Source: a bacterium
GTDB lineage: Bacteria > Verrucomicrobiota > Kiritimatiellia > RFP12 > UBA1067
Assembly: GCA_030537465.1 (NCBI GenBank)
Contig: JAUNMP010000004.1
Coordinates: forward strand, 1 to 58,359
Length of the DNA: 58,359 nt
Direction: 5' to 3'
Shown here: positions 8,339-41,462 of the stretch, in pieces
Position numbering within the stretch: the first letter of the stretch is position 1
How the letters are laid out: each line of letters starts with the position of its first letter
Notes under the pieces: generated by a model
Database searches by the model: none
What the model was told of the DNA's origin: nothing
Seen by the model: only the letters and a program-made list of their open reading frames with translations
Made by a program: the position numbers and the translations under genes

Positions 8339-8350
8339 AACGGCGGAGGG

Positions 8351-9457
8351 CTATGCCAATCTGAAGGTCCGCGCAGGAGCGAGAGCCGCGCCGGGGAAGA
8401 ACTCCAGCGACACACCATTTGCCGCGACGTCGAGGCGGAAGTGTCCCGCGCCGCGGTTGAAGAAGTAATCCTTGACCCCCGGACGGAACAGCGCCGCGTC
8501 TTTCTCGTAGTCCACCCGTTTCTTCGCATCCATATCCGCCAAATAGAGCGTGGCGTACTTCATGGCGTCCGCGCAGATTGGCTCGGCAGTCGCGATCTCG
8601 GGAGCCTTCCAGACGGAGTTGCCCGTGAACTCGGAGAAGCCGCCGAATGAATTCTCATGCCGATAGTAGGCGATCGTGTGGGTGTGACCGGAGAGGACGA
8701 CCGCATGGCGGCGAGACAGTAGCTCGTAGAGGCGACGACGCCCCGCCTCGCAGTCCGGATGCCCCGCAAGCCGCCAGCGGAAGGAACCGCTGCTGTCGGG
8801 GCACGTGAACGGGCCATGCGTCACGAGAAAGGTGTAGCGCACGTCGGAATCCGCCTCGATGCAGGCGCAGATGGCCCCGATGTCCTTCGTCTCGAAATCG
8901 CAGAAGACCCAGAGGTCCGGACCGCGACGGAACGAGAACACGGGATACTTCGCGACACAGCCGGCCTCGCTGGAGATGAATGGCTCCGCGAACTGGAGAT
9001 ACGCCTCCCGCGCGCCCTTGCCGCGGAAATCGTGGTTGCCCATCACGGTGAGGAACGGGACGCCCTGCGGATAGGGGGTACGCAGCATCTTGATGCAGTC
9101 GTCGAGCATCTTCTTGTGCGTGGGCACGTCGTCACAGTCGCCTTGGATGATGTCCCCCAGCTGGAGCACGAAGTCGGCCCCCTTCTCGTGGGCCAGCCTC
9201 GCGCTCGCCGCCAGAAGATCCCGGCAGCGCTTCCGCCACATCTCGCCGTTGCGGCGGAATTCCTCGTGCTGGATCTTCGCCCAGCGGTTGGACTCGTCGT
9301 AGTGCGAATGGTAGACGCTCTCCGGCTCCGCGTCGAAATGCGTGTCGCCGAGGATGGAAACCGCATAACGATCGCCGCTCCGCGTACCAAGAGGCTGACA
9401 TCCGGCGAATCCGGCCAGAGCCGTCGCACCACCAATGAAATTCCGTCTCGTCAGCAT
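8351..9457 (-). CDS. TAT-exported calcineurin-like metallophosphoesterase
   Basis: A 368-residue phosphoesterase with all metal-binding blocks: GDTHFD (38-43), GDIIQGD, GNHDF, THGPF and SGHTHT. The N-terminus MLTRRNFIGGATALAGFAGC has a twin-arginine motif, and the AGC could be a lipobox, so the folded metalloenzyme is probably exported and perhaps lipid-anchored. It starts 7 nt after the G1P-dehydrogenase-like gene and probably shares its transcript. The phosphate ester substrate is unknown. It faces the plus-strand DUF4832 gene tail to tail, with 12 nt between the stop codons and no hairpin. Confidence 0.88.
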   Translation of the reverse strand: MLTRRNFIGGATALAGFAGCQPLGTRSGDRYAVSILGDTHFDAEPESVYHSHYDESNRWAKIQHEEFRRNGEMWRKRCRDLLAASARLAHEKGADFVLQLGDIIQGDCDDVPTHKKMLDDCIKMLRTPYPQGVPFLTVMGNHDFRGKGAREAYLQFAEPFISSEAGCVAKYPVFSFRRGPDLWVFCDFETKDIGAICACIEADSDVRYTFLVTHGPFTCPDSSGSFRWRLAGHPDCEAGRRRLYELLSRRHAVVLSGHTHTIAYYRHENSFGGFSEFTGNSVWKAPEIATAEPICADAMKYATLYLADMDAKKRVDYEKDAALFRPGVKDYFFNRGAGHFRLDVAANGVSLEFFPGAALAPARTFRLA

Positions 9458-26422: not shown

Positions 26423-26448
26423 CGCGGATATTCTACCAAATATCCGCG
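26423..26448. promoter_or_regulatory. Perfect 10-bp inverted repeat upstream of the ABC operon
   Basis: CGCGGATATT (26423-26432) and AATATCCGCG (26439-26448) flank a 6-nt loop in the 55-nt gap between two minus-strand genes. On the minus strand it ends in TTTAATG, only a weak U tract, so as a terminator it is marginal. It also contains the candidate -10 of the ABC operon, so an operator or attenuator role is equally possible. Confidence 0.6.
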
Positions 26449-26473: not shown

Positions 26474-29400
26474 TCATTCGCTCCAGTACTTCTGACGGCG
26501 CGGCATCTCCACGCCTGGCTTGAAGCCCGTCAACGGGACGGGTTCCATCCCGTATTCCTTGCGAATGTCGTTCAACTCCAGCCAATGGAACGCACTCCGC
26601 TTGTTGTTGGTGTAGAGGAAGCGCTGCTGGTGCCAGTCGCACCACTTGTTCGCCTCGACATAGGAGCTGGAGAACGGAATCGCCAGATCGATCCACAGCG
26701 CAAACGTCCGGATTTCGTTGTCCGTCAGCGCCACGCGCCTCTTCCCGTCCTTGCCCGGATGGCCGTCCTTCAGCATCTGGTACCACTTCGACCGCAGCGC
26801 GCCGAACGAATACGGCGGTTTGAACGGCGCAAAGCTGAGTCCGTGCGCGAAGTTCACGTTCTCCGTGCACTTGCCCTTCTCGCTGAGCGCGAGGTACGCT
26901 GCCGTGTACGCGCGGTGGCTCTGGTCGTCGCTTGGCGGGATTTTGCCCGGCACGTCGCGCAGATCGAGACGGTGCGACTCGCCATGGCAGCGGACACAGC
27001 TGCGGTTGAGAATCGGCTGGACGTCCTTTTCAAAGCCGAAGCCGTCGCCGAAGAACGACGCATCGACCTTCTTGGGACGGTTCAAGCCCATCCACGCATC
27101 GAGCGAAGCGAGCGGACCTTCCTTCTCGAGCGTCTCGACGAACGGATGACGCGGACCATTCGGCAACCACGGCTTCAGGCTCTGCGGCGGACGGCGCAAC
27201 GCCAGCGCCGCCGTATTGTCCACCGCCGCCTGATGCGGGTGCTCATGGCAGCCAATGCAGCCATTCACCTCACCTGGCATCAGCGTCGACCAGCTGCGCA
27301 TCGTCTGGATCGCACAGCCGTCCTTGTCGACGAGCTGGAAGTAGACGGGCGTGCGCGCCGGCACCTTCACGCTGCAGCTGCCATCCGCCTCGACGTCCGC
27401 CTCACCCAGCACATGCTTCACGTCATAGGCGCCATTGCCCACGGAGATCGGCGTGCCGATCTTGCCCTGCGTCGAATGCCAGCCATACTGCCAGTTCCAG
27501 CCAATATGCACGGGACGGTACTCGAGACCGATCACGCGCAGCTTCTTCACCGCGCCCTTCGGAATGCCCTTGGACGCCGCACCCTCGTAGACGTTCTGCA
27601 CGTAGTACGTGCCAAACCCCTCGCGATAGTCGATCTTCGCCATCGGACGCGCCGGCGCCCGACGCGGCTTGAGCGCGATCGGCTGCAGGCAGTGGTTGCC
27701 CCAGTCGAACGCCAGCAGTTCGCGCTCCCCCTGCTCGGTCATCGCGTAGACGCCGAAGCGCGAGGAATAGGGACCCCGATAGAAGCTGCACCCCTCCGGC
27801 ATGAAGGAGACGAGCAGATCGCCGTCGCCCAGCGGATAGGGATAGGCCCATTGCGGACCAAACTGCGTGTGCATGTCAAAGGCGTTGTACTGGTAGTCAT
27901 GCGGCATGCGCGTAGGCTGCACGCCCGGCGCCGCGTTCATCGCCGCACCCGCGAGATAGTACATGCCCGGCATGTTCGTGACGGCGGGACCGCACGGATT
28001 GTCCCAGTTGCTCCAGGGAATCGTCATTACGCGATTGCCGGGAAAGGTCATCTTCACGGCATTCGTGTTCATCCCCCACACGGAGGCGGCAGGGTCGTAG
28101 GTCGAGTTCGTGTAGTCGTCGCCGTCCGCGAGACGCGACCGGGCGAGACGCCCCTTCTGTGCGACATGGTGTCCGCAGGAGATCATCATGATATCACGTG
28201 TCCCGGGAATGCCGCGTGTGTGCATCAGCGAAAACGGGAACTCCGAGTTGTTCGCGAAGAGCCCCGTCATCTTCGTACCGTCCGAATTCATCGCATAGAG
28301 CTGCTGAAGCCCGGAGGCGGAGCGGTCGTTGTACTCCCACTTCGTGAAGGAGACGCGACCGTCGTCCATCAGCTGCGGATAGAACGTCTGAACCTGGTCG
28401 AAGCCGATCCGCCGCACGTGCGAACCATCCGCCTCGCAGCGATAGAGGTTGGACACCGGCAGCGGCCAGCAGTCGACGGAATGGCAGCAGCGCGTCGACT
28501 GGAAGAGAATCGTGCCGTCCGGGAGCCAGCAGGGTTCGATGTCGCTGCAGATGAGCGTGAAGTCCTTCTCCTGCGTTCCGCCGATGTCCTCGCGACGAAC
28601 GAGGCCATTGAACGTGAGCTGGGTGATCTTCTTCGTCTCCAGATCCATCTTCCAGATGTGGTAGTCGTCCCCCTCCAGAGAGGTGCGCTTCGAAAAGAGG
28701 AGCGTCCTGGCGTCGAAGGAGAGCGCGGGGTCGCGGATGATGCCCTGCGGCTCGTCGAGGAGCACCTCCTGCGAGACCGTGCCGTCAGCGTTGATCGTCG
28801 CGCGGATCAGCTGCGAGCCGCCGCGGTAGTCGGGCACGCTCTTCCACTCCTGAAACGAGGCATCGGTCATGTCGTCGGTCGCGTGCATGATGGAATTGCC
28901 CATCACGAGATGCTTCACGTAGATGAACGCATCGCACTTCGCGCGGAACTTCGCGAGAAACGCCCTGCGCTTCTCCGCTCGCTCCTTTCTCCATTTTCCA
29001 TCTTCCATTTTCCATTGAACACTCGAGATGTCCTCGCCCAGGGGATCGGGCTTCGTCGTATCCGGCTCAACATTGGCGCAATGCGAGATATTGCTCACCG
29101 CACAGCTCTGGTAGAGCCAATCGCGCACAAGGCGCGTCTCGGGGTAGGCGATCGAGCCATCCGCATTCGGCAGCGGCAGATCCTGCGGCAGCTCACGGCC
29201 GAAGAACGACATTTCGGCAATCTGTACCGTGCAGGGTCCCTCCGCGCGAACCCGATAGGGCGGCGTCTCGAAAAGCTTCTGAATGTGCTTCTGCGCCTCC
29301 CAGGTGTAGAAACAGTAGTAGTGTCCAGCCTGGTCGTAGGAATCTTCGATGACCATCTTCACCGTGCGACCCCGGCGAGGATTCCATGTCGCATAGTTCT

Positions 29401-31534
29401 CCTTGTAGGTGTGGGACGGACGGAAATCGACATGCTCCGCCAACGGCACCCATCCCCCCTTCTCACCCTTCTCTACCCTCTCAACCTTCTCACCCTTCTC
29501 CCCCTTCACATAGAAACTCGCCTTCTTCACGCCGCGGTTCGTGTAGCTGCGCCCCGCCATCAAACGCACGCCGCCGATTTCGCGCGGCTCCGCGAAGTCG
29601 AAGACGACCTCGATCGGTTTCTTCGTCCACTTGAAGGCGCAGGCCGGGTTGATCTGGCCGTCAATCAGCAATTCAACACCCTGGTTCGGCAACGTCGCGG
29701 CCGCAGACGAGGCCTTCACCGCCGGACGCTTCAATGCCGCCTTCGGCACGAGATCCACCCAGTCGTAGTCCTCCAAGGCGCCCCACACGCCAATCGCATA
29801 GGAGTCGTTCCGCGGATCGGGATTCGTCACCATCTCCGTCCAGCTCGGCGGAGGGTCGACCAGTTCAATTCCGCTGAAGAGCTGCGGCTCCGCCGCATAG
29901 GCATGGGCCGCGGCGATGCAGTCCCAGCCAGCCGCTTTCAGCGGCGTTGAGAACGTTGAGAGGGTTGAGAGGTTGAGAGAGGCTCCAGCCTTTTGGACTT
30001 TCTGACGGATCTCAGAAAGAGCCTTCAAAATGAGGTTTTCGGCATCACGGCCCACGACACTGCACCCCAGGGTTGCCAGGAGGGCCGCCTCGTTTTCACG
30101 CGCGCAGCCGTAGGCGCCTTTCAGGTACCACCAGTTGAAACGGGGGTGGTCAAAATGTTTGAATGTTTGAATGTTTGAATGTTTGATCAAGGCCTCAAGG
30201 GGACGGATGCCGGCACGACGACGCACGATCTCCTGAAGTTTCTGGGGAGCAATCTTCTGACGAGCCTTCGCCAACGCCTCCGCCCGTTCGGCGAGGAGCG
30301 TGTACACGCTTTTGAATCCAGGAAGATCGCGCACCTGGTGCGACGGCGTCACGTATGTCGCCTCGGCGCGGAACGGCAGCGGGGCCTTGTTGACGGGATC
30401 GTCGTTCCCCACGCCGCCCAGCGCCTGATAGTCGGCGAGCGCATGGGGCTGGGGTCCACCCTGAATGCAATAGCTCATCCAATCCGTCTGCGCCGCCCGG
30501 GTCGGGGGCGGAAGGCCGTGGGGGCCGTCGCAGTGGAAGTGCCAGTAGCGAGAGGGTTGAGAATGTTGAGAGGGAGAAAGAGAGGAACCGAAGCCGAGGT
30601 GGGAACAGAGCGAGGAGAAGACCGCGAAGGTTTCCTCGGCGCCCTTCTGCGGGAAGTAGTCCTTCCATCGGCTGCCGGTCGCGAGCGCCACGCGTGGCTG
30701 TCCGAGCGCGAGCATCGCCGCATGGTTCACGCCGACGTTCAACTGGTTGAAGAAGAACTGTTCGGCATCGTGGCAGCCGCGTTCGCGGAAGACTTCGCGC
30801 AGCGACGAGATGTAGCAGTTGGGGAATGCGACCTTGATGCGCGGATCAAGCGCCTGCAGATAGGCGCTCATCGTACCGCCGCCGGACGTTCCCATCACAC
30901 CCAGCTTCGAGCAGTCGACATCGGTACGAGTCTCAAGGTAGTCAATGGCACGGATGCCATCCCAGATGCGGAAACGGGCAAAGTTCCAGCCCACGAGCCA
31001 ACCGCGTGCGCCGAGACGCGTATGCTCGGTCGAGCAGTTGTCCGTGTAGTCGTATTGCGCCGCCGACTGTCGACGCTCCCCCTGGGAGATCGGATCCCAG
31101 GCAAACGCCGCGAAGCCCGCCTTCGCCGTCATCACGAGATGCGCCGCGTAACGCGGATTCAAAATGCCGGTATCGCTGTGTCCCAGAGGCATCAGGACAC
31201 CTGGATAGGGCGCCTTGAACTTCGGGTCAGAGGGAAGCGCCAGATGGGCCGTGACGAAGACGCCGGGCTGCGACTCGAAGAGGATGTTCTCAAGGCGGAA
31301 GCCGTCACCTTGGACCTGCCCCACCACGCGGGCGTTGAGCGGCGTGCGCTCGGGGAGACCACCCAGTCCCTCGATCCAGGCCGTTCGCCAGGCCGCCTGC
31401 TTCGCCGTCAATTCGGCCGGCGTGGCGATTGCGGAAACGACGGCGTCGGCAGCCTGATCGGCGGTTGAAAGTTCATCCAGAAGATCCGCCTGTGCGCAGG
31501 CAGACAGAAAGCACACAACAAAAAGCCTTTTCAT
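26474..31534 (-). CDS. Exported esterase / HzsA-like / di-heme cytochrome c fusion
   Basis: A 1686-residue protein. The N-terminus MKRLFVVCFLSACAQA is a signal, and LSAC could be a lipobox. Residues about 30-390: acetyl-xylan-esterase-type alpha/beta hydrolase with nucleophile motif GTSGGG (Ser about 217). About 600-770: discoidin-like module (VVFDFAEPREIGGVRLMAGR). About 800-1430: the HzsA-related region of PVC proteins, with TolB-like blades (RDPALSFDARTLLFSKR). Heme motifs: CIGCH (about 1426-1430) and CVRCH (about 1513-1517) in FEKDVQPILNRSCVRCHG, like PSD1 cytochromes. Five short tandem-repeat arrays encode extra linker residues such as KGEKGEKVERVEKGEKGG. It begins 38 nt after the glycyl-radical-type gene. 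The joint role of esterase and electron-transfer parts is unknown. Confidence 0.82.
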   Translation of the reverse strand: MKRLFVVCFLSACAQADLLDELSTADQAADAVVSAIATPAELTAKQAAWRTAWIEGLGGLPERTPLNARVVGQVQGDGFRLENILFESQPGVFVTAHLALPSDPKFKAPYPGVLMPLGHSDTGILNPRYAAHLVMTAKAGFAAFAWDPISQGERRQSAAQYDYTDNCSTEHTRLGARGWLVGWNFARFRIWDGIRAIDYLETRTDVDCSKLGVMGTSGGGTMSAYLQALDPRIKVAFPNCYISSLREVFRERGCHDAEQFFFNQLNVGVNHAAMLALGQPRVALATGSRWKDYFPQKGAEETFAVFSSLCSHLGFGSSLSPSQHSQPSRYWHFHCDGPHGLPPPTRAAQTDWMSYCIQGGPQPHALADYQALGGVGNDDPVNKAPLPFRAEATYVTPSHQVRDLPGFKSVYTLLAERAEALAKARQKIAPQKLQEIVRRRAGIRPLEALIKHSNIQTFKHFDHPRFNWWYLKGAYGCARENEAALLATLGCSVVGRDAENLILKALSEIRQKVQKAGASLNLSTLSTFSTPLKAAGWDCIAAAHAYAAEPQLFSGIELVDPPPSWTEMVTNPDPRNDSYAIGVWGALEDYDWVDLVPKAALKRPAVKASSAAATLPNQGVELLIDGQINPACAFKWTKKPIEVVFDFAEPREIGGVRLMAGRSYTNRGVKKASFYVKGEKGEKVERVEKGEKGGWVPLAEHVDFRPSHTYKENYATWNPRRGRTVKMVIEDSYDQAGHYYCFYTWEAQKHIQKLFETPPYRVRAEGPCTVQIAEMSFFGRELPQDLPLPNADGSIAYPETRLVRDWLYQSCAVSNISHCANVEPDTTKPDPLGEDISSVQWKMEDGKWRKERAEKRRAFLAKFRAKCDAFIYVKHLVMGNSIMHATDDMTDASFQEWKSVPDYRGGSQLIRATINADGTVSQEVLLDEPQGIIRDPALSFDARTLLFSKRTSLEGDDYHIWKMDLETKKITQLTFNGLVRREDIGGTQEKDFTLICSDIEPCWLPDGTILFQSTRCCHSVDCWPLPVSNLYRCEADGSHVRRIGFDQVQTFYPQLMDDGRVSFTKWEYNDRSASGLQQLYAMNSDGTKMTGLFANNSEFPFSLMHTRGIPGTRDIMMISCGHHVAQKGRLARSRLADGDDYTNSTYDPAASVWGMNTNAVKMTFPGNRVMTIPWSNWDNPCGPAVTNMPGMYYLAGAAMNAAPGVQPTRMPHDYQYNAFDMHTQFGPQWAYPYPLGDGDLLVSFMPEGCSFYRGPYSSRFGVYAMTEQGERELLAFDWGNHCLQPIALKPRRAPARPMAKIDYREGFGTYYVQNVYEGAASKGIPKGAVKKLRVIGLEYRPVHIGWNWQYGWHSTQGKIGTPISVGNGAYDVKHVLGEADVEADGSCSVKVPARTPVYFQLVDKDGCAIQTMRSWSTLMPGEVNGCIGCHEHPHQAAVDNTAALALRRPPQSLKPWLPNGPRHPFVETLEKEGPLASLDAWMGLNRPKKVDASFFGDGFGFEKDVQPILNRSCVRCHGESHRLDLRDVPGKIPPSDDQSHRAYTAAYLALSEKGKCTENVNFAHGLSFAPFKPPYSFGALRSKWYQMLKDGHPGKDGKRRVALTDNEIRTFALWIDLAIPFSSSYVEANKWCDWHQQRFLYTNNKRSAFHWLELNDIRKEYGMEPVPLTGFKPGVEMPRRQKYWSE
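28984..29018. repeat. 7-bp tandem repeat, CCATTTT type
   Basis: Units begin at 28991, 28998, 29005 and 29012 (CCATTTT, CCATCTT, CCATTTT, CCATTGA). It encodes the Lys/Met/Trp-rich linker MEDGKWRKERAEKRR in the fusion protein without breaking its frame. Confidence 0.8.
29457..29510. repeat. 9-bp tandem repeat, six units of CCCTTCTCA type
   Basis: Six degenerate nonamers encode KGEKGEKVERVEKGEKGG inside the discoidin-like module of the fusion protein. A 9-bp unit keeps frame when the copy number changes. A closely related array lies in the GH106 gene at 50594-50647. Confidence 0.85.
29946..29982. repeat. 8-9 bp tandem repeat, GTTGAGAG type
   Basis: GTTGAGAAC, GTTGAGAGG, GTTGAGAG and GTTGAGAG occur in a row and encode the LNLSTLSTFSTPL segment of the fusion protein. 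Confidence 0.8.
30154..30185. repeat. Four perfect 8-bp repeats AATGTTTG
   Basis: Four identical octamers in tandem inside the fusion gene (segment HSNIQTFKHFDHP). This is the only perfect array in the window. As 8 is not a multiple of 3, slippage by one unit would truncate the protein in its esterase half. Confidence 0.9.
30550..30585. repeat. 9-bp tandem repeat, GAGAGGGTT type
   Basis: Degenerate units GAGAGGGTT, GAGAATGTT and GAGAGGGA are followed by GAAAGAGAGG. They encode SLSPSQHSQPS in the esterase domain of the fusion protein. Confidence 0.65.
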
Positions 31535-31548
31535 ATCTCCAATCCTAA

Positions 31549-31576
31549 AAGCTCGAAGCTCCAAGCTAAAAGCTAC
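31549..31576. repeat. Four 7-bp repeats AAGCTNN at a gene junction
   Basis: AAGCTCG, AAGCTCC, AAGCTAA and AAGCTAC occupy the gap between the glycyl-radical-type gene and the fusion gene. The last unit covers the stop codon of the former (31573-31575). Confidence 0.85.
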
Positions 31577-33915
31577 TTCAACCGATGACGGGCGATGACT
31601 TCATCCTGCCAACGCTTCGAAAGCGACGTGAAACGCGCCGAGAAACCGCAGACCCGCACGATGAGATTACGATGCAGCTCGGGGTGCTTCTGCGCCTCCA
31701 GCAGCAACTCCGCGGAGTTGCAGTTCGGCTGGATCATGTGCGACCCCTTCTCGCAGAAGACGCGGAGAATCGCCGCAAGGAGCTGTGCGTTCATCGCAGA
31801 GGCGTCGAAGGTCAGATTCACGTTCGAGGCGTAGAGCTTGTCGTGTGGCAGCTTGCCGATGGAATTCATGACGGTCGTCACGCCCTCTTCGCAACGGGAT
31901 TCGCTCGGACTGAATCCCTGCGCAAGCTGATCTCCGTCACGCCGCCCATCGGGCGTCGCCCGTGTGTTCTTTCCCCAATACATGAACTCGCGATAGGTGT
32001 AGACGGCATAACGGTAGGTGTCGCCGAATCCGTTGTCCTTGCCCTCCGTCGCCTTGTTCGCCTGCTTCATGAACCAGCCCATGAGTTCGATCGGCTCGGG
32101 CGTGCCGTCCCCCCAGTAGGGCGAGGCGAGCGCGGCCCGGCGCAGCTCCTCGCCGCGCGGCCCCTTCCAGTTCGCGCGGACGACGTCGAGGAATTCCTTC
32201 ACGGTCGCAAGCTTGCGGTCGAAGCACACGCTCTTGATCGCCATCAGCGAATCCGTCACGTTGCCGATGAAGCCGAGCGTCATGATGCGCGGATGGGACA
32301 GCGAACCACCCTCGTTCGTGTCGCGCCGAGATTCAATGCAGCCGCGCAGACACATCGAATAGACCGGATGCGGGAAGACCTGCGCACTGGAGACGCCGTA
32401 CTTCGAATAGTCGTCCGTAACGCCCTTCAGATACCGCTCGAAGTTGTGCCAGTAGATCGCGCGCAACTCCTCGAAGGACTGCGCGTTGTCGAGTGGATCG
32501 AGCTCAAGTTCACAGGCCTTCAGCTTCTTGGGGTCTGGATTAAGCGTGAGTTCGAGCAGCTTGATCATCGAGAGATAATTCGCGCCGTCGACGTCCTGGA
32601 CGGAATCGACGTACCCGTTCCAGCAACCCGTACCGATGTAGCTCGTCGCATCCTCGAACGAGAAACCGTCGCGCGTGTACTGCTTCAGATAGCGGTCGTC
32701 GTTCAGAAGCGTGAAGACGGCGTGTCCCTTCATCAGCATCGTGCCGAGCTTCTCGAGATAGGCCTGCGGCGCATTCGACGAAATGCGGCAGTGGAGTTTC
32801 GGGTAGACGCAGTCCGCCTCGAGATGCGCGTCGAGGAACATCGCCGTCAGCTCGTTGTAGAGCGGCACGCCCTTCGTGTCGCATCCGCCGAGGGACATCG
32901 GGATCTCCATCTCGTGGTCGTTGTACGAATCCACCTTCGTCGAGCTGTCGTAATGGCACTCGGCCGTCAGGAGGAACTTCGTGACGAGTTCCCGCGCCGC
33001 GTCCTTCGTGAGCGTACCCGCGGCGATCTCCTTGTTGTAGAAGTCGATCAGATAGGCGTCGGGACGACCGAGCGAGAAGCAGTTCACGCCATCGACGTAA
33101 CCGAGAATCTCGCGCACGAACCAGAGCGTGTTCAGGCCCTCGTAGAAGGTCTTCGGCGGTTCCCACGGACAGCGCCGCGCCGCCTCTGCGATACGGCGCA
33201 GATTGTTGGATTGCTCGATTGTCAGATTGTCGGATTGAGAGAGAAGCCGCTGGGCCTCCGTGGCGAACTTGAGCTGGAGATCATGGATGGTGTCGAGACC
33301 GACGAGCGCCGTTTCAAGTTCCTTGCGGCCCTTCGGATCGTCGGCCGGGCACGTCTTCAACGCGGCGGCGACCTCGTCGCGCACGCCCTTGAAGCCGACG
33401 GAGAGAATCTTGCGGAACGGCGGCACGTGGTGCATGTCGTCGCAGAAAGGTCCGCAGCAGAGCGCCAGACACTCGCGCTGACGCGCCCGCTGACGCTCGA
33501 AGGCGGACTTCGGGACCAGCCCCTTCTCGTCATAGAACTTGCCGCAGAGCCTGTTGACGATACGCGCCGGACGCTTTCCGCCCCAGCCGCCGTTCACGCC
33601 CGCCTCGAAGTAGAACGGACTCTCCTTGAAAAGGAATGGCACGAAGTGGCGGCGCATCGCGAGATAGCTCTCGCGCCGCACATCGAGCGCGTCGTAGCCG
33701 GGATGTTCCCTGCAAAAGGCCGTGAGCTCTTTTTCGATGGCCTGGTAGCTTGCCGCCGAACGCGGATCCTTCACAGGATCGCTCTGGAAGCGATCGGGAT
33801 AGAACGCGCGCAGCTCCGCGCGGAAGGCCGCGTGGTCGATGGCGGACGCCGACGACAGGGCTCCCGCGAGCAGACACGTGGCAACAAGCGTACGACAAAA
33901 AGAAGGATGCTTCAT
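31573..33915 (-). CDS. Glycyl-radical-enzyme homologue (PFL-like) with Sec signal peptide
   Basis: A 780-residue protein of the pyruvate-formate-lyase/dehydratase superfamily. Seen: FYEGLNTLWFVREILGYVDG, active-site loop with Cys431 in IGTGCWNGYV, ATPDGRRDGDQLAQGFSPS, and a C-terminal glycyl-radical loop VRVCGFSARF (Gly757), with QKHPELHRNLIVRV before it. GREs are normally cytoplasmic and need a radical-SAM activase; none is in this window. Here the gene starts MKHPSFCRTLVATCLLAGAL followed by SSASA, a convincing signal peptide, and GRE homology begins right after it, so no later start fits. The base Glu seen after the active-site Cys in many GREs (GCVE) is replaced (GCWN). It starts 5 nt after the second SUMF1 gene. 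Product and activity unknown. Confidence 0.88.
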   Translation of the reverse strand: MKHPSFCRTLVATCLLAGALSSASAIDHAAFRAELRAFYPDRFQSDPVKDPRSAASYQAIEKELTAFCREHPGYDALDVRRESYLAMRRHFVPFLFKESPFYFEAGVNGGWGGKRPARIVNRLCGKFYDEKGLVPKSAFERQRARQRECLALCCGPFCDDMHHVPPFRKILSVGFKGVRDEVAAALKTCPADDPKGRKELETALVGLDTIHDLQLKFATEAQRLLSQSDNLTIEQSNNLRRIAEAARRCPWEPPKTFYEGLNTLWFVREILGYVDGVNCFSLGRPDAYLIDFYNKEIAAGTLTKDAARELVTKFLLTAECHYDSSTKVDSYNDHEMEIPMSLGGCDTKGVPLYNELTAMFLDAHLEADCVYPKLHCRISSNAPQAYLEKLGTMLMKGHAVFTLLNDDRYLKQYTRDGFSFEDATSYIGTGCWNGYVDSVQDVDGANYLSMIKLLELTLNPDPKKLKACELELDPLDNAQSFEELRAIYWHNFERYLKGVTDDYSKYGVSSAQVFPHPVYSMCLRGCIESRRDTNEGGSLSHPRIMTLGFIGNVTDSLMAIKSVCFDRKLATVKEFLDVVRANWKGPRGEELRRAALASPYWGDGTPEPIELMGWFMKQANKATEGKDNGFGDTYRYAVYTYREFMYWGKNTRATPDGRRDGDQLAQGFSPSESRCEEGVTTVMNSIGKLPHDKLYASNVNLTFDASAMNAQLLAAILRVFCEKGSHMIQPNCNSAELLLEAQKHPELHRNLIVRVCGFSARFTSLSKRWQDEVIARHRLK
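33201..33240. repeat. Five 8-bp repeats GATTGNNN inside the glycyl-radical-type gene
   Basis: GATTGTTG, GATTGCTC, GATTGTCA, GATTGTCG and GATTGAGA. They encode the linker LSQSDNLTIEQSNNL before the catalytic barrel and leave the frame open. Confidence 0.85.
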
Positions 33916-33920
33916 GGTCT

Positions 33921-35285
33921 TCAGTCCAGGGTTAGGCAGAGGCGCACGCCGCAGAGGGACTCCTCGGCGGGCTTGTCGGCCTTCAGCGGATACTTGTAGC
34001 CAGTGCGGTAGACGCGCAGGCGGATGTCGTAGTCCTTGCCGTCCCGGCCCTTGGTCGAGCCGCCGGCGCGGTAGTGCGAACCGCGCGTGATGCGGTAGCC
34101 GTGGTCGTAGGTCGCGGCGGGTCCGGTCGGATCGACCGCGCCTTCCTCCGGCAGCCAGAAATTGTGGTTGCCGGCCGCGTTGAGGCCCGAGTTGTCCGAC
34201 GTGCGGCCGAGCGTCGTCGTCCACTGGTGGCAGCAGCCGACCATCGCGTAGAGGCCCCACGCGTTCGGGGGCCTCATGTGCGGCTGGAATTCCTGGAAGT
34301 TCCCCCAGTTGCCGGGCGCGACGTCCGTCTGCGTGAAGAGGTAGGCGTTCGTGCTGCCCGCGCGCGCCGCGTACTCCCACTGCACGTCGGTCGGAAGGTC
34401 GAAGGATAGGCCCGAGCGGGCGCGCAGGATGCCGACGATTGACTCCGGATCGACGGCCGTCGACTTCGGGAAGTTGTATCCGTTCACGGTGTCGGTGCCG
34501 CGAGCCCGTTCGTATGAGATACCCGTGGCCACGGCCGAGAAGTTCTGGCCCAGCGTCTCGCCCCAGGCAACGCTGGACCGCGGCCGCCCCATCTGCTCGA
34601 GCTGGCCCCACGTCATCGGGTAGACGGCAAGGTAGAAGCCCTTCGTCAGCTTCACGTTGCGCGCGGACTCCTTCAGGATGTCCGAATCGAGCATGTAGTT
34701 CCAGCCCGCGTCGTGCGGGTCGGACACGTTCGTCGTGCCCGGGGTGCCGAGGCGGACGTATTCGCTGCCGCCGGAGAGCGCCTTCCATTCGTCGGATGTC
34801 GTCGGCGGCACGTAGCGGAACGCCATGTAGTCCCGGAAGAACATGGTCTTCTTCAGAGCGTTCGTGACCGAATGGTCCGCGTACGTCACCGCGCCGTCCT
34901 TCATCCGCAGCAGCATGTACGGCGGCGTACCCGAGACCTCCTCCGTGACGGAGACGCGGAACTTGAGCTGACCGTAGACGGCGCCCGCATGGTCGGTGGA
35001 CGCGCGCCACGAAATGGTCTGCCGTCCGCTCGGACGCGCCAGCCGCGTCGAGACCGATGCGTCGGAAATATAGACGTCGTCCTGGCCGTTCGACGCCGCG
35101 ATGTCGAGCCGCACGGCCTTCGCCGTCGCGCCCGGGGGCGGCGTCACCGTGAACGAGATGTCGACCGAATCGTCCCAGGGCTGGCGCGAGACCGCGACGA
35201 CGTCGCTCACCACGTAGCCCGCCGCGTCCGCGAGCGCCGTCGCCGCGAAGGCCAGGGCGCAGCCGAATCCAAGAAACTTCCTCAT
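33921..35285 (-). CDS. Secreted SUMF1/FGE-fold protein, paralogue 2
   Basis: A 454-residue exported protein (signal MRKFLGFGCALAFAATALA). Residues about 25-130 look like an immunoglobulin-like sandwich. From about 145 runs a formylglycine-generating-enzyme fold: YPMTWGQLEQM, FDLPTDVQWEYAARAG, PNAWGLYAMVGCCHQWTTT, YRITRGSHYRAGGST, GVRLCLTLD. The usual GNVWEW is GCCHQW. No sulfatase is encoded in the window and the protein is exported, so a ligand-binding or hydroxylating role is more likely than sulfatase maturation. Strong ribosome site AAGGAGGA. It is 13 nt after its paralogue and 5 nt before the glycyl-radical-type gene. Confidence 0.85.
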   Translation of the reverse strand: MRKFLGFGCALAFAATALADAAGYVVSDVVAVSRQPWDDSVDISFTVTPPPGATAKAVRLDIAASNGQDDVYISDASVSTRLARPSGRQTISWRASTDHAGAVYGQLKFRVSVTEEVSGTPPYMLLRMKDGAVTYADHSVTNALKKTMFFRDYMAFRYVPPTTSDEWKALSGGSEYVRLGTPGTTNVSDPHDAGWNYMLDSDILKESARNVKLTKGFYLAVYPMTWGQLEQMGRPRSSVAWGETLGQNFSAVATGISYERARGTDTVNGYNFPKSTAVDPESIVGILRARSGLSFDLPTDVQWEYAARAGSTNAYLFTQTDVAPGNWGNFQEFQPHMRPPNAWGLYAMVGCCHQWTTTLGRTSDNSGLNAAGNHNFWLPEEGAVDPTGPAATYDHGYRITRGSHYRAGGSTKGRDGKDYDIRLRVYRTGYKYPLKADKPAEESLCGVRLCLTLD

Positions 35286-35298
35286 CTCCGCGTCCTCC

Positions 35299-36609
35299 TT
35301 ATTTCACATCCAGGGTCAGCGCCAGGCGGCAGCCCGTGTTGGACGGCTCCGCGTTGTAGGTCGCCCCGTTCAGCGTTCCGTTCTCGCAGTTCGAGCGCTG
35401 GAGCATGCGGTAGGCGAGGCGACCGACGCGCGCCTTCGCGCCGCCCGGGCCGCTGTGGGAACCCCTGCAGACGCGGAACGGACCCGCGCCCATCTGCGGC
35501 ACCGGTCCGAGCGGGTCCACGCCGTCCGCGTGCTTCGCGGGGCCGCCGTTCGCGCCCAGCACCGGGCTGGTCGTCGTCCACTGGTGGCAACAGCCCACCA
35601 GGTCGTAGAGCCCCCAGGCGTTGGGCTTCTTCGTGCCGACGGCCGCGCCTGCGTTGTACGCGCCGTACTCGTTCAGCAGCGCCACGGCCGCGTCGGACGT
35701 GGCGGCCGCCGCGAAGTACTCCTCCTCGCTGCCCGCGCGTGCGGCGTACTCCCACTGCGCCTCGGTCGGGAAGTCGAAGTTCCGCCCCGTGCGCAGGCGC
35801 AGACGGCCGATCGGCGTGTCCAGGCCGATGTTGGGCGTGGCGGGGAAGCAGCAGAGGCCGAGGTCGTTCGTGCCGTCCCTGCCGCGCAGCGCGTCGTAGG
35901 ACACGTTGCGCACGGGCACCGCGTCCTGCGTGCCGACGGACCCACCCAGCAGCGCGTACTGCCTGCGCGTCATCGGGAAGACGCCCAGGAAGAACGCCTT
36001 CGTGAGCGCGATGTTCGCCACGCCCTCGCGACCGCGGTCGCCATCGGTGATGCCGAGGTCCGTCCGCTTGCCGTCGGACCCGATCCGGAACGTCGTCTTC
36101 CCCTTCTGCACGCGCCATTCGCCGGACTGCGTCGACGGGATGTAGCGGAACGCCATGTGCGTCGTCTTGTAGGTCGCGACGTTGACCTCGTTCGAGAACG
36201 CGAGCGGCTTGTAGTCGATCGCGCCGGACGCGAGGTCGACCGTCATATAGCCGACATCGGGCACGTCGTCCACGAGGGACACCATGAACGTGGCGTTCTT
36301 GATCTCCGTCGGGAACGAACCATCCTCCGGCGGCGTCCAGACGACGCGGTGGCGGCCTTCACCGAGGATGGACGCGCCCTGGAGCTGGTCGGCGGCGAGC
36401 GTGCGGTCCCCGAGCTTCACCGCCACGCGCGCGGCACGTCGGCGCGAGGCCTGTCCGTCCGTCTGCCGTGCGCGGAAGTCGATATCCACCTTGCGGCTCC
36501 ACGGCCAGCGTTGCACGACCGTGACTTCAGTGAATTCCCAGCCGCCCGCCTCTGCCAGGACGGCGGACGTCAGCGCGGCGACGGCGATCAGAAACAGGTT
36601 CTTCTTCAT
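35299..36609 (-). CDS. Secreted SUMF1/FGE-fold protein, paralogue 1
   Basis: A 436-residue exported protein (signal MKKNLFLIAVAALTSAVLA), same architecture as the next gene: N-terminal Ig-like region (VTVVQRWPWSRKVDIDFRA), then the SUMF1 fold with FFLGVFPMTRRQYALLGG, FDFPTEAQWEYAARAG, PNAWGLYDLVGCCHQWTTT, FRVCRGSHSGPGG and GCRLALTLDVK. It shares GCCHQWTTT with its paralogue, so the substitution is inherited and not random. The SUMF1 fold is also the C-type-lectin-like scaffold used for variable ligand binding. The gene begins 16 nt after the small secreted protein, behind GGAAGGACC. Confidence 0.85.
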   Translation of the reverse strand: MKKNLFLIAVAALTSAVLAEAGGWEFTEVTVVQRWPWSRKVDIDFRARQTDGQASRRRAARVAVKLGDRTLAADQLQGASILGEGRHRVVWTPPEDGSFPTEIKNATFMVSLVDDVPDVGYMTVDLASGAIDYKPLAFSNEVNVATYKTTHMAFRYIPSTQSGEWRVQKGKTTFRIGSDGKRTDLGITDGDRGREGVANIALTKAFFLGVFPMTRRQYALLGGSVGTQDAVPVRNVSYDALRGRDGTNDLGLCCFPATPNIGLDTPIGRLRLRTGRNFDFPTEAQWEYAARAGSEEEYFAAAATSDAAVALLNEYGAYNAGAAVGTKKPNAWGLYDLVGCCHQWTTTSPVLGANGGPAKHADGVDPLGPVPQMGAGPFRVCRGSHSGPGGAKARVGRLAYRMLQRSNCENGTLNGATYNAEPSNTGCRLALTLDVK

Positions 36610-36625
36610 GAGATGCGGTCCTTCC

Positions 36626-37351
36626 CTAGCGCACGATGAGCAGCAGGCCCAGGACGCCGTCGAGCCAGGCGTCGGAAATCAGGCTGCTGCCCGAGTAGAT
36701 CTTGAAGTAGTACTTGCCGGAGGGGACGCTGGACGCCTCTAGCGGCACTGCGCCGCGCGGCCCGCCCTCGCCGTTCAGCGGCGCGAGGCCGGTCTTCTGC
36801 GTGTTCGCGCCCGTGACAAGGTTCGAGCTCGACATCCAGGTGAGGTTCGCGCCCTGCAGGCCGGGCCACCACGTCGTGTCGAACGGGACGTCCGCGGGCG
36901 CCCGGTAGATGCGCCACGGGGTCGCGTTCGTCGGGCACGTGAGCACGCGGCCGCGCGCGAACGTGCCGGGGCGCAGCTCGTAGGTCGTCGAATAGGACGT
37001 CGTCAGCTTGCCGTCGGGCGAGGCGAACGTCAGCGTCGCCGTCAACGTGTCCATGCGGAACGGTTCGGGCGGCGCGTCGAAGAGCGTGCAGGAAATCGTC
37101 GTCGCCGGCTTCGTCGCCGTCGCCGTGACGTCGTAGTGCCGGCCCTTCACGCGCAGCGCCGCCGCGGTCGCGCCCGCCGGCGCGAGACCGTCCGCCCAGT
37201 CGAGCGGAAAGGTCAGCGTACCGGAATCCAGATACCGCGGCACGCCGGCCTGCAGATCCAGCGAGACGGCGTTCGACTCCGCCGCCCCGGCTGCCCAGGG
37301 AACCAGAAGTCCCACGAGCACGCAGGCCCTGATCCGTGTCTTCCACTTCAT
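36626..37351 (-). CDS. Small secreted beta-rich protein, function unknown
   Basis: A 241-residue protein with signal peptide (MKWKTRIRACVLVGLLVPWA plus AGA). I do not recognise its family. The mature part is rich in Thr, Ser and aromatic residues without a cysteine pair pattern, and reads as beta-strands. The last third has PWRIYRAPADVPFDTTWWPG and PSGKYYFKIYSGSSLISD. It ends in GLLLIVR, similar to the LLVIR end of the giant repeat protein at 53194. The ATG at 37351 is chosen because GGAGGT lies 6 nt upstream and the signal peptide begins there. First gene of the five-gene secreted operon, divergent from the PAS-AraC regulator. Confidence 0.75.
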   Translation of the reverse strand: MKWKTRIRACVLVGLLVPWAAGAAESNAVSLDLQAGVPRYLDSGTLTFPLDWADGLAPAGATAAALRVKGRHYDVTATATKPATTISCTLFDAPPEPFRMDTLTATLTFASPDGKLTTSYSTTYELRPGTFARGRVLTCPTNATPWRIYRAPADVPFDTTWWPGLQGANLTWMSSSNLVTGANTQKTGLAPLNGEGGPRGAVPLEASSVPSGKYYFKIYSGSSLISDAWLDGVLGLLLIVR

Positions 37352-37504
37352 CCGTCTACCTCCATTCAAAATCCACAAAAATTTAAATCAAGGTAATTAT
37401 CGCAAATATCCACTGGTTCATCATTGCACCAGAACGCCTAAAAAGTGTACAATCTGACCACACGAGTAAATATGATACAATAAGTGGCAGATGACAAGAA
37501 GACC
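37352..37504. promoter_or_regulatory. AT-rich divergent control region of the secreted operon and AraC regulator
   Basis: About 150 nt, clearly AT-richer than its flanks. Minus strand: TGCGATAAT can serve as an extended -10 for the operon starting at 37351. Plus strand: GTGTACAAT (37446) and TGATACAAT (37473) are two possible -10 boxes for the regulator. This is the obvious place for AraC binding, but I see no clear direct-repeat site. Confidence 0.5.
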
Positions 37505-38260
37505 ATGACGCTAAAGGAAAAGAGAACGTTCCAGTCAAACTTCCTGCAGAGAGCAGGACAAAACGCGGAGATCATCCGCCAGATGGCGGATGCGGTGCCG
37601 GGCGTGCTCTTCAACATCGTGGACGCCGACGAGCGCATTGTCGCGTTCAATCGTGCGAACTGCGAGGTCTGCAATTTCAAGGACGAGATGGAGGTTGTCG
37701 GCGAGAAGGTCGCGGACCTCTTTCCCGCCGTCCTCGCCGAAGCCTATCTGTCGCTCTACCGCGAAGCGCGCGAATTGGGAACACCCATCCTCAACCGTGT
37801 CACCGCGCATGGAGCGGACCGCTCAACCGATTTCCGCGTTGCGAACGTGTTTCCCCTTCGAGATGCCGCCGGCGCGGTGATCGGCACGGCGGTGTTCTAC
37901 CGCGTCGTCGACCAGCAGCACGCCAAGCCGGACTGGTATGGCGCCATCCAGAAGGCCGTCTCCCACATCGACGCGCACTTCCGCGAACGGCTCTCGCTTG
38001 CGGATCTCGCCCGCATCTCGGGCATGAGCACCACCACGTTCCGCCGCGTCTTCGCCCAGGTCATGGAGATGACGCCCGGCGACTACATCGCCACCATCCG
38101 CATCAACCGCGCACGGAAACTGCTCACGACGACGGACATGAAGATCTTCGACATCGCCTTCGAATGCGGCTTCTATGACCAGAGCCACTTCATCCGCACG
38201 TTCAAGCGTCTTCGGAAGCAGACCCCGGCCCAATACCGCCGCGCCCACTTCAGAAAATGA
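37505..38260 (+). CDS. PAS-domain AraC-family transcriptional regulator
   Basis: A 251-residue regulator. Residues about 10-140 form a PAS sensor (MADAVPGVLFNIVDADERIVAFN, then VANVFPLRDAAGAVIGTAVFY). From about 150 there are two AraC helix-turn-helix units: LSLADLARISGMSTTTFRRVF and MKIFDIAFECGFYDQSHFIRTF, closing with the KQTPAQYRR signature. I prefer the ATG at 37505. The in-frame GTG at 37484 lies 2 nt after a -10 box and could not be on that transcript. It is divergent from the secreted SUMF1/GRE operon and convergent with the heparinase gene, so either may be its target. The ligand could be a small molecule or redox signal. Confidence 0.9.
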   Translation: MTLKEKRTFQSNFLQRAGQNAEIIRQMADAVPGVLFNIVDADERIVAFNRANCEVCNFKDEMEVVGEKVADLFPAVLAEAYLSLYREARELGTPILNRVTAHGADRSTDFRVANVFPLRDAAGAVIGTAVFYRVVDQQHAKPDWYGAIQKAVSHIDAHFRERLSLADLARISGMSTTTFRRVFAQVMEMTPGDYIATIRINRARKLLTTTDMKIFDIAFECGFYDQSHFIRTFKRLRKQTPAQYRRAHFRK

Positions 38261-38293: not shown

Positions 38294-38314
38294 CTCAAAC
38301 CTCAAGACTCAACG
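38294..38314. repeat. Three 7-bp repeats CTCAANN over the heparinase stop codon
   Basis: CTCAAAC, CTCAAGA and CTCAACG. The third unit contains the stop codon of the heparinase gene (38309-38311). Confidence 0.6.
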
Positions 38315-40162
38315 CGAGGAATAGGTCGTCGTGAACGTTGCCTCCGTCACGGGATCCGCGAAGGTGAACGCAAGGCGCTGCACGTCGGGGCGGGATGGAT
38401 TCTCGATCTTCTGCTCCGCAAATTTCACCGGTGCCGAAGACTTCACCTCCATTTTCATCTTCCGATAGGTCTTGGCGCTCTTGTCGAAGGTGAAGACCGT
38501 CGCATCGGCGTTTTTCTTCCATGTGCGGTAGGTGATGACGGGAACTTCGAAGGTCGTCGGTTCGGAGCAGGCAATCTTGTCCGTGACGGTGATCTCGTCC
38601 TTCTCGCGGTCGAAGGTCAGCGTCCGGCGCAGCGACTTGAGCGCGGGAACCGGATACGCCGCCGCATACTCGATCTCGAGCGTGTCCTTCGCGTCGGAGA
38701 ACTCGGAGCGAATCACCTGCGCAGCAGCCTTGCGTCCAACGCTTTGGAGCTTCCCACCCACGACAGGCACGGGATGCCCGTAGGAGTTCAGAACCTTCGA
38801 CACGTAGCGGTCCTTCGAGAACGTGCGGCGCGTGTAGACCTCGCCACCCGGATCGCCGCCCATCTCGGTGCCGTCGAGCATGATGTAGTAGGTGCCCACG
38901 TCGTTGTGGTTGTGGAGCTCGGCGTTGTGTCCGCCCTTGAAGGCGACGCCGAACGTCATCGTGCGCTCGGGGTGGTGGACGCGGGAGATCATCACCTGGG
39001 CGTCGGGGAACCAGGACCGCGCGGGAAGGACATCGAGCGTCGGCTCGACCGGCGCGGGCTCCTGACCGAACGCGCGCAGAGAGAAGGTTGCGGGATCGCC
39101 GCGGAACGGTGCGGCCTTCAACGCCTCCGTGTTCACGAGGTCCGGCCAGATCTGCCGGCCGAGTGCCAGATACGTGGGCACCGCGTTGCCACCGCCATCC
39201 GCAAAGTGCGGAGACCGTCCCGCCTGCACCTGGAAACCGTAGGCATACTTCATCACGTCCTTGCACTTCGGATCGGCGAAGAAGTCCACCTTACCGCCTG
39301 TCGCGGCACGCACGGAGAGCCCCATTTCGAGATGGTTGCCGTAGCCGTAGTTCCAGTAGCCCATGCCCTCGGAGCAGTAACCGTCGTTGTTGTAGCCCTT
39401 CAGCGCGTACGGCACGGTCTCCTCGGCGAACGCGACGAACTCGGCGCGCAGACGACGGTCCTCAATCACGGCGAGCGCCGTGCGGACCACGCAGGAATTG
39501 CAGACGCTGTTCCAGTTGTTGCCACCGTGGAACCACCAGTGCCCGCGGATCTTCCGAATGCCCCGCGCATGATCAAGATGCGGCTTGAACGTGCGGCGCT
39601 CGAGTTCGGACCTGATCTTCGCGCGTGCTGCGGCTGGCAGACGGTCCTCCAGCCAATCGTAGCAGAATGCAAGCATCAGCGAAATATGTCCAGCCATGAG
39701 ATCGATGTGTGGCTGCCCATTGAAGCAAGTGAGGGCGTCGTCATGGGCAGGCAGGGTCCAACTCTTCATCGCGCAGAAGGCGTCCACATACTCGACGATC
39801 TTCGGGATGAAACGTCCCTTGTTCTCAAGGCACTCGGCCACATAAAGATGCCGAAAGGCCCCCATGCGCTGTCCAAGGCTTTTCTGATAATGGGTGCGGT
39901 TGCCGTTCTGCGTAAACTCCAGATATTCGGCGTCCGGCGCGTCCGGGATGGGGGCGCCGAGCAGAGCCTCGGCGGCCTTGATCTCGCCCTTCCCATTCGC
40001 AGACGCCGCCAACCTATCCCAGCTTGCACGGTCTGTGATCCGCGCGCCATCTGCCTTTGGCTTTTCCGGAAGCCAGCCTGCGATCTCGTTCACACGCTCG
40101 GCCGTGATGGCGAATGATCCCAATGTGGCCGCCAGCGTCGCCAAAATCAAAAGATTCTTCAT
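38309..40162 (-). CDS. Secreted heparinase II/III-family polysaccharide lyase
   Basis: A 617-residue exported lyase (signal MKNLLILATLAATLGSFA). An (alpha/alpha) toroid with RGHWWFHGGNNWNSVCNS and EGMGYWNYGYGNH (about residues 210-280) is followed by the heparinase II/III beta-sandwich with NAELHNHNDVGTYYIMLDG (about 405), carrying the conserved His residues. These enzymes cleave uronic-acid polysaccharides by beta-elimination and leave unsaturated ends. The upstream GH88 would then remove them, so the two form a functional pair. The start is the ATG at the signal peptide. Heparan, alginate and ulvan-type substrates are all possible. Confidence 0.85.
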   Translation of the reverse strand: MKNLLILATLAATLGSFAITAERVNEIAGWLPEKPKADGARITDRASWDRLAASANGKGEIKAAEALLGAPIPDAPDAEYLEFTQNGNRTHYQKSLGQRMGAFRHLYVAECLENKGRFIPKIVEYVDAFCAMKSWTLPAHDDALTCFNGQPHIDLMAGHISLMLAFCYDWLEDRLPAAARAKIRSELERRTFKPHLDHARGIRKIRGHWWFHGGNNWNSVCNSCVVRTALAVIEDRRLRAEFVAFAEETVPYALKGYNNDGYCSEGMGYWNYGYGNHLEMGLSVRAATGGKVDFFADPKCKDVMKYAYGFQVQAGRSPHFADGGGNAVPTYLALGRQIWPDLVNTEALKAAPFRGDPATFSLRAFGQEPAPVEPTLDVLPARSWFPDAQVMISRVHHPERTMTFGVAFKGGHNAELHNHNDVGTYYIMLDGTEMGGDPGGEVYTRRTFSKDRYVSKVLNSYGHPVPVVGGKLQSVGRKAAAQVIRSEFSDAKDTLEIEYAAAYPVPALKSLRRTLTFDREKDEITVTDKIACSEPTTFEVPVITYRTWKKNADATVFTFDKSAKTYRKMKMEVKSSAPVKFAEQKIENPSRPDVQRLAFTFADPVTEATFTTTYSSR

Positions 40163-40202
40163 CTCGCACCAACCTTTCAACACTGAATCTTCAAAATCCA
40201 AC

Positions 40203-41462
40203 TTACTTGATCAACCGCTCAAAGCGACCCAACGCCTCGAGAAAGTAATAATCGGCGTAGTTGAGCGGCACGTCGACCTCACCGGACTTTGGATTGCCAT
40301 ACCAGCCTGGCTTGTTGCCTACGCAGTGCATCAGGAGGAAGTTACCATTCTCACCCGTCTTCGCGAGGTACGCGTCGGAGGCGAGGGACGAAAGGATCTT
40401 CACGCCGAAGGCACGATAGGCCGCGGCCTTGTCGGTGGGGGCGAACTGGCAGAGCTCGAGCAGAGCGCTCGCGGTGACCGCGGCCGCGGAGGCGTCACGT
40501 TCCTCGTTCGGGATCCGGGGCGCCTTGAAGTCCCAGTAGGCGACACCATCTGCCGGAAGATTCGGTTCGTTCATCCAGTAGTCGGCGCACTTCATTGCGC
40601 GTACGAGATACTTTAGGTTCTTCGTCTCGCGGTACATCATCGTGAATCCGTAGACGGCCCAGCTGTGTCCACGGCTCCAGGTTCCTTCCGTGCAGGCACC
40701 CTGCCCGGCGAAGATTCCGTGCACCTTCTTCGTCACGCGGTTGTAGTCGAGCACATGGTAGGCGCTGCCGTCGGGACGAAAATGATGCAGATCCGTGAGA
40801 TCCGCCTGGCTGCGGCTGATGAGATCGCTCTTCGGATCGCCACCGTTCTTGGCGTCCCACTCGAGGAGCTCGAGGTTCATCATGTTGTCGATGATCACGA
40901 TGTACTGCGGCACGAAGAAGCCATTCCCCTTCAGGTTCTTGGGATTGTTCCAGCTGCAGATGAGCCCCATCTCGTCGTCGTAGCGCGTGCGGAGCGCGGC
41001 GGCCGTGTCGTGCAGGAACGCGGCGTACTTCGGGTCCTTTGTGAGGCGCAGCGCATTGCCGGCGGAGCAGTAGGTGCGGAAACCGACGTCGTGGTTGCTC
41101 GCATCGTGGCGGAGCGGCTCGAGGAGACGGTCCGTGTACTGCGTGGCGGCGTCCTTCCAGAATGCCTCGCCGGTCTTCTCGTAGAGATACCACAGCGAGC
41201 CCGGGAAGAATCCGCTGCACCAGTCCCGCGGCGGGATGACGACAAGCTTGCCGTCCTGCCAGCGCTTGGGCTGCATCTCGGGCTTCTGCGCCTCCATCTG
41301 CTTGAGAAGTCCGCGATACTGCTCGAAGCAGCGCGCATAGACAGACGGAAGCTTCGCTGCCAGGTCTGTTTCGGCGGACGTCGCGGGCGCAGCGAACAGG
41401 GGAAAGGCAAAACCTGTCAGCAGAGTGGTGACCGTCGTGCGGAAAGAGGGGAATGTCGTCAT
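40203..41462 (-). CDS. Secreted unsaturated glucuronyl hydrolase (GH88)
   Basis: A 419-residue exported (alpha/alpha)6-barrel enzyme. Key residues: the catalytic Asp in SNHDVGFRTY (around residue 121), a second Asp in IIDNMMNLELL, plus WCSGFFPGSLWYLY, RGHSWAVYGFTMMYRET, and the end YADYYFLEALGRFERL. GH88 enzymes hydrate the C4-C5 double bond left by lyases on uronic-acid oligosaccharides, so it works after the heparinase encoded 40 nt downstream. The signal peptide lies in the first 25-30 residues, and AAAGGA precedes the ATG. GH105 is the related alternative, but the uronyl-type motifs favour GH88. Confidence 0.92.
   Translation of the reverse strand: MTTFPSFRTTVTTLLTGFAFPLFAAPATSAETDLAAKLPSVYARCFEQYRGLLKQMEAQKPEMQPKRWQDGKLVVIPPRDWCSGFFPGSLWYLYEKTGEAFWKDAATQYTDRLLEPLRHDASNHDVGFRTYCSAGNALRLTKDPKYAAFLHDTAAALRTRYDDEMGLICSWNNPKNLKGNGFFVPQYIVIIDNMMNLELLEWDAKNGGDPKSDLISRSQADLTDLHHFRPDGSAYHVLDYNRVTKKVHGIFAGQGACTEGTWSRGHSWAVYGFTMMYRETKNLKYLVRAMKCADYWMNEPNLPADGVAYWDFKAPRIPNEERDASAAAVTASALLELCQFAPTDKAAAYRAFGVKILSSLASDAYLAKTGENGNFLLMHCVGNKPGWYGNPKSGEVDVPLNYADYYFLEALGRFERLIK

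Follow-up and report, generated by a model that had tools for sequence, protein, structure and literature searches.

A signal-bearing glycyl radical enzyme in a Kiritimatiellae operon suggests radical chemistry outside the inner compartment

The window analysed here, the whole 58,359-nucleotide stretch of contig JAUNMP010000004.1 (assembly GCA_030537465.1, from a member of the Kiritimatiellia), contains five minus-strand open reading frames that a first-pass annotation had described as an operon of exported proteins. Re-reading the DNA gave the same coordinates and exactly the same gaps of 16, 13, 5 and 38 nt, all five proteins were found to begin with export-like signals (5/5, by a motif-based reading), and the PAS-AraC regulator is, as annotated, divergent from the operon. 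The genes and features of the locus are:

36626-37351, minus strand: small protein, predicted to be exported, first gene of the operon; N-terminus MKWKTRIRACVLVGLLVPWAAGAAE
35299-36609, minus strand: SUMF1-fold paralogue B, predicted to be exported; N-terminus MKKNLFLIAVAALTSAVLAEAGG
33921-35285, minus strand: SUMF1-fold paralogue A, predicted to be exported; N-terminus MRKFLGFGCALAFAATALADAAG
31573-33915, minus strand: putatively exported glycyl radical enzyme (GRE), 780 aa, PFL-like and Gly_radical domains; N-terminus MKHPSFCRTLVATCLLAGALSSASA
33841-33915, minus strand: Sec-type signal of the GRE (MKHPSFCRTLVATCLLAGALSSASA), ahead of the conserved core
32623-32625, minus strand: predicted catalytic Cys431 (GTGCWNG), invariant in 20/20 relatives
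31645-31647, minus strand: predicted glycyl radical residue Gly757 (RVCGFSARF), invariant in 20/20 relatives
26474-31534, minus strand: esterase-like, F5/8-like, HzsA-like beta-propeller/middle domain and di-heme protein, 1686 aa
27245-27259, minus strand: c-type heme motif CIGCH, in register with CSGCH of HzsA
26984-26998, minus strand: second c-type heme motif, CVRCH
26423-26448, minus strand: terminator-like hairpin, 26 nt past the last stop (pattern match only)
37469-37497, minus strand: promoter-like site of the operon (weak pattern match; the number found equals the shuffle mean)
37484-38260, plus strand: divergent PAS-AraC regulator (Pfam PAS_4+AraC)
38309-41462, minus strand: heparinase II/III-like and GH88-like genes beside the operon, putatively exported (weak Pfam scores)

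Promoter-like sites lie on both strands of the A+T-rich divergent gap, in a count no higher than in shuffles. The PAS-AraC regulator may control the operon, and its relatives adjoin other exported-GRE loci (51% identity at L078; 40-42% at L225, L227 and L235). The protein of the last gene has a lipoprotein-like start, MKRLFVVCFLSAC, with a lipobox-like LSAC. Pfam supported the annotated domain content of the two SUMF1-fold proteins and of the GRE; as for the esterase/HzsA-like/di-heme protein, the HZS_alpha domain and both CxxCH motifs were recovered, and the esterase and F5/8 matches fell below the cut-off.

The GRE matches PF02901 (4e-75) and PF01228 (7e-20), and the PDB structure closest to its AlphaFold (AF2) model (pLDDT 85) is that of choline TMA-lyase CutC (5fau, Z 35.9, 704 residues, 20% identity). 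Cys431 aligns with the Cys of the CutC GCVE loop (the thiyl-radical cysteine of the finger loop), His162 is likewise invariant in the 20 relatives, and Asn433 stands where CutC has the Glu of the GCVE loop, a position held by N, D or E across the subfamily. Judged by sequence, the window GRE is intact, with Gly757 for the glycyl radical, Cys431 for the thiyl radical and His162 all in place, and it falls in the CutC/glycerol-dehydratase (eliminase) branch. Its best NCBIfam score was 272 bits, against a subfamily cut-off of 678, and the equivalog models gave at most 235 against 1100; since no named equivalog model was reached, we describe it as a GRE without assigned specificity, nearest to the eliminases. 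No cognate radical-SAM activase gene lies within the operon.

Within the order, GREs of 45-67% identity constitute one family, separated from the rest at ~35% and lower, and in a scan of 84,980 species this subfamily was found only in MAGs of Kiritimatiellae, Opitutales, Verrucomicrobiaceae, Lentisphaeria and Victivallales; on this distribution the subfamily is PVC-restricted. Many of its members bear Tat- or Sec-like signals, these being gut Kiritimatiellae together with one Opitutales and one Verrucomicrobiaceae MAG. Tat-like N-termini occur at L051, L052, L053, L061, L062, L063, L068, L069, L072, L077, L079, L097, L098 and L128, and Sec-like ones in the window and at L050, L054, L055, L058, L059, L073, L075 and L076, the calls at L055 and L058, where an R-K pair is also present, being the least certain. 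The GREs of L056, L057, L064-L067, L070 and L071, and members in the wider phylum, are untagged, and such cytosolic relatives begin directly at the core that the window signal precedes. All genomes compared are MAGs and the signal calls are motif-based, apart from the TIGR01409 Tat profile, whose cut-off was passed by the clade-1 GREs of L051, L052, L053, L069, L097 and L098, by one GRE of genome G058 and by C394 of the window's own genome. In the assembly this C394 gene (L016), a Tat-tagged GRE, is broken up by a frame change. The TIGR01409 signal is a feature of relatives; that of the window GRE is of Sec type, with a strongly hydrophobic core and without a twin arginine.

Two further GRE clades of the same genomes, which serve as a negative control, had no signals at all among ~15 N-termini. 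On the tree the signal states need eight changes, and the window GRE is sister to that of L050 and next to those of L055 and L058, all of them Sec-type. The annotation had counted orthologues encoded without a signal peptide against its proposal, and several distant members of the subfamily are indeed untagged, which makes predicted GRE export a derived and recurrent trait within the subfamily. A second, divergent GRE clade (L224-L243; LQVRVCGWNVRWN, ~26% identity) bears Tat or Sec signals too, beside a tagged or untagged activase.

The HzsA-like part of the last protein matches PF18582 at 4e-31 (107.9 bits against a gathering score of 26.6) and the HzsA structure 5c2v at 3e-13, and the nearest PDB matches of its esterase part are carbohydrate esterases (best 6goc); the HzsA-like/di-heme half was predicted at pLDDT 41 from a 6-row alignment, and we make no claim on its fold. 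Hydrazine chemistry was considered and rejected, the hydrazine synthase model NF052339 scoring 44 bits against a cut-off of 800. A GRE and an HzsA-like protein (60-80% identical) are linked in six genomes from four genera (the window, L050-L053 and L082); the two genes either adjoin or have between them an esterase gene, an activase gene or a few genes. In L051 and L082 the esterase has a gene of its own, and in the window it forms one protein with the HzsA-like part. All five HzsA-linked GREs with a readable N-terminus carry an export signal. These neighbourhoods bear out the annotation's notion of a system in the periplasm or at the surface, built around a GRE with a signal. Conservation was seen for the GRE and HzsA-like pair; the exact five-gene order was found in the window only. 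Five genes as a single conserved unit were accordingly rejected, as only the GRE-(esterase)-HzsA group and the SUMF1 module recur. The statement that SUMF1-fold, HzsA-like and GRE proteins are not known as a unit also needs correction, for HZS_alpha and FGE domains share five open reading frames of the window's own genome, as read from matching places and frame lengths. In that genome HZS_alpha matches at 16 places and FGE at 22, its HzsA-like di-heme proteins being greatly expanded, and C367 contains an open frame equal in length to that of the window's esterase-HzsA protein.

SUMF1-fold A matches PF03781 at 2.7e-8, with similarity to PorK/GldK and TvpA, and SUMF1-fold B at 5.6e-12, with similarity to TvpA (2y3c) and PvdO (5hha); the scores, 34.2 and 46.3 bits against a gathering score of 23.3, cover the C-terminal part only. 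Reading the C-terminal sequences of both directly for the motif, rather than from an alignment to an FGE structure, we saw no FGE active-site cysteine pair, and an FGE function of the pair is disfavoured for that reason. It had been suggested that the pair binds or modifies a ligand, and both proteins do look like ligand binders. The small protein has no family match in Pfam or NCBIfam, and elsewhere in the genome a distant relative of it heads a different SUMF1 pair. Three more loci of this genome have the small/SUMF1/SUMF1 arrangement, accompanied by different cargo and with small proteins that are barely similar, and one of the three again has a signal-bearing GRE fusion; rather than a fixed part of the operon, the pair is a separable module.

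Exported GREs have among their neighbours GH2, GH28, GH43, GH78, GH106, GH88, GH127-like and GH27-like enzymes, and a GH106 is also encoded within the window. An exported-looking protein of 1664-1671 aa (53194-58209, minus strand) adjoins this GH106 rhamnosidase. Some GREs are themselves fused to domains of this kind. At L054 a single open reading frame joins a signal peptide, a GH16 domain (PF00722, 6e-17) and a GRE (ONTV01000059.1, 6411-9554) and is followed directly by a radical-SAM activase with a Tat-like tag (9586-10431), making it the clearest single locus for the question of external activation. In the window's own genome, C15 (L018) has a GRE C-terminal to a 3-keto-disaccharide hydrolase domain (PF06439, 4e-12), and on C326 (L083:4700-8605) a GRE ends a signal-bearing 1302-aa frame beside a SUMF1 pair, both contigs stopping inside their GRE domains. 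The N-terminal part of the L083 fusion has no PDB or Pfam match, and its resemblance to a (beta/alpha)8 glycosidase is only an impression. From its gene context, we infer that the operon serves the breakdown of complex sugars (glycans) outside the cytoplasm. L279 and L283 have untagged-looking GREs with in-frame upstream sequence resembling a sialate O-acetylesterase/GH2-type domain.

The window's own genome encodes activases on C132 (beside its own GRE), C18 (PFL), C433 and C226. The C226 activase, a candidate partner for the window GRE, scores above the TIGR02494 cut-off and begins MACARRDFCRGSIAALAALGTVPFAWA, with a GAGGAG ribosome-binding site upstream; its gene follows a GH88 gene, and is neither in the window nor co-encoded with the window GRE. 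In the order, a Tat-like extension is present on 15 of ~36 activases of the C226 type and on a single one (L076) of the six that make up a second type, with an RR/RK-x-F motif and an h-region, and the other activases lack it. Within close activase pairs the extension differs mainly at third codon positions (6/1/19, 7/3/15 and 5/3/17, for example) and the DNA just upstream of it is unlike in four of five pairs, so the extension is translated and constrained. None of 10 activase N-termini matched TIGR01409, so that their reading as Tat signals draws on the motif and the hydrophobic core.

Where GRE and activase genes are adjacent, the activase is tagged beside seven of seven Sec-type GREs (L054, L076, L224, L226, L228, L230 and L232) and untagged beside all 12 Tat-type GREs (tagged 0/12; L052, L063, L097, L098, L147, L225, L227, L233, L238, L254, L255 and L256), counts that represent only three to four phylogenetically independent contrasts, all concordant (sign test, p 0.25), and in which the signal types of L054, L098, L233 and L256, missed by the core pattern, were assigned by inspection. 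In the operon at L234 the activase is tagged and the GRE is not, and L235 is ambiguous. At the level of fully surveyed genomes the rule is a tendency, with Sec-type GREs in seven of nine genomes that have a tagged activase and in two of eight that do not (G058 and G064); in G139 a tagged activase goes with a GRE that has no tag. The pairing of adjacent genes is the pattern expected if Tat-type GREs receive their radical inside and leave the cytoplasm folded, and Sec-type GREs are charged outside. The window's own genome has genes for TatC and for c-type cytochrome assembly. At L063, an aldo/keto reductase (7937-9331) that starts in a Tat-like manner and has two ferredoxin-like clusters lies in an operon with a Tat-type GRE and an untagged activase, and is a possible exported redox partner.

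The predicted export of the GRE, and often of the activase too, among relatives suggests radical chemistry outside the inner compartment. The annotation had the signal-bearing GRE at the core of its system, and missed the exported activases and the glycoside hydrolase-GRE fusions. An alternative that we consider unlikely is that the GRE-activase complex and its radical are made in the cytoplasm and that one Tat signal per pair exports the folded complex, the GRE's own Sec-like sequence being weak or an anchor. Only one partner is Tat-tagged in the adjacent signal-bearing pairs, as this would have it, and the L234 operon fits as well; however, the window-type GREs have clear Sec-type signals, and the tagged activase of the window's own genome is encoded apart from the GRE. 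Less probable again is an exported scaffold reused for binding or non-radical chemistry, with its residues kept by descent: an oxygen-labile radical and SAM-dependent activation do fit poorly outside the cytoplasm, and the GCVE-loop Glu is replaced in the window GRE, but the Cys and Gly motifs are invariant in all exported members aligned, and activases adjoin these members. We give the same low credence to misread starts or non-functional signals on what would be an ordinary cytosolic dehydratase, a reading that agrees with the clearly untagged members of the subfamily; against it, the 5-nt gap behind the previous gene fixes the start of the window GRE, signals occur across several lineages, ahead of the core or of GH16, and the Tat members pass TIGR01409. 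Finally, although GRE microcompartments with N-terminal targeting peptides occur in other bacteria, it is highly improbable that the extension is an encapsulation peptide, as the 91% complete genome has no BMC shell genes (PF00936) and the extension, a signal-like stretch without charges, is not amphipathic.

We therefore favor an exported, radical-competent GRE acting on a glycan-derived substrate, a reading that we hold to be reasonably probable. The window GRE would cross the membrane via Sec and fold outside, where the Tat-exported [4Fe-4S] radical-SAM activase of C226 would put the glycyl radical on it. The enzyme would then eliminate or dehydrate a sugar acid, polyol or glycoside released by the neighbouring hydrolases and esterase, and we propose a small substrate because known GREs have buried active sites. 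The SUMF1 pair would bind a ligand or anchor the complex, and the di-heme protein may accept or supply electrons, electron transfer by this protein being speculation. Taken alone, the step in which an exported activase installs the radical externally is tentative; we know of no SAM or low-potential reductant in the periplasm, and the need for both in external activation counts against the model. More tentative still is the full picture, in which gut Kiritimatiellae would perform extracytoplasmic glycyl-radical chemistry on plant or host glycans by two export logics, Tat-type GREs being activated inside and exported folded, and Sec-type GREs being charged outside by Tat-exported activases.

If true, this would be the first extracytoplasmic radical-SAM/GRE system and an anaerobic, O2-free counterpart of LPMO-like radical sugar chemistry, and a lineage that is abundant in rumen and gut and uncultured would gain a role. 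Export of both GRE and activase would raise the questions of how an activase outside the cytoplasm obtains SAM and low-potential electrons, whether a GRE can pass through Tat with its glycyl radical preserved, and whether anaerobes apply radical chemistry to glycans directly. In textbooks, GREs and the SAM-dependent activases that serve them are oxygen-labile systems of the cytoplasm. The literature searched, which left preprints and most subscription papers outside, held no report of a GRE or GRE activase that is a Tat substrate, exported or periplasmic; both enzymes are already known, and their extracytoplasmic versions are, within that literature, the new part.

Among known systems, CutC and the B12-independent glycerol and propanediol dehydratases share with the window GRE a fold of more than 700 residues, the Cys and glycyl loops and, with C226 as the candidate here, a radical-SAM activase partner; the window GRE differs from them in its export signal, in GCW[NDE] for GCVE, in its glycan-degradation neighbours, in a genome without BMC genes and in scores far below the NCBIfam equivalog cut-offs. 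YbiW/PflD-type GREs (8id7, 8id0) have, according to the structure titles, been crystallised with carbohydrate-derived (sugar-alcohol phosphate) ligands; they are not known to have a signal sequence, their ligands are phosphorylated, and their structures rank below CutC in a sequence search with the window GRE. The hydrazine synthase alpha subunit HzsA resembles the last protein of the operon in its HZS_alpha middle domain, its CxxCH in register and its second, C-terminal CxxCH, whereas the window protein is fused to an esterase-like domain and belongs to a set of 16 paralogues in this gut bacterium. TvpA, PvdO and GldK/PorK are likewise exported and have a SUMF1-like fold region, and the window's SUMF1 proteins depart from them as a tandem pair headed by a small protein with an export signal, in which the FGE cysteines were not seen. 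In the export of folded redox proteins by Tat, the Tat-exported cofactor enzymes, such as formate dehydrogenase and the molybdoenzymes, offer a likeness to the system proposed here.
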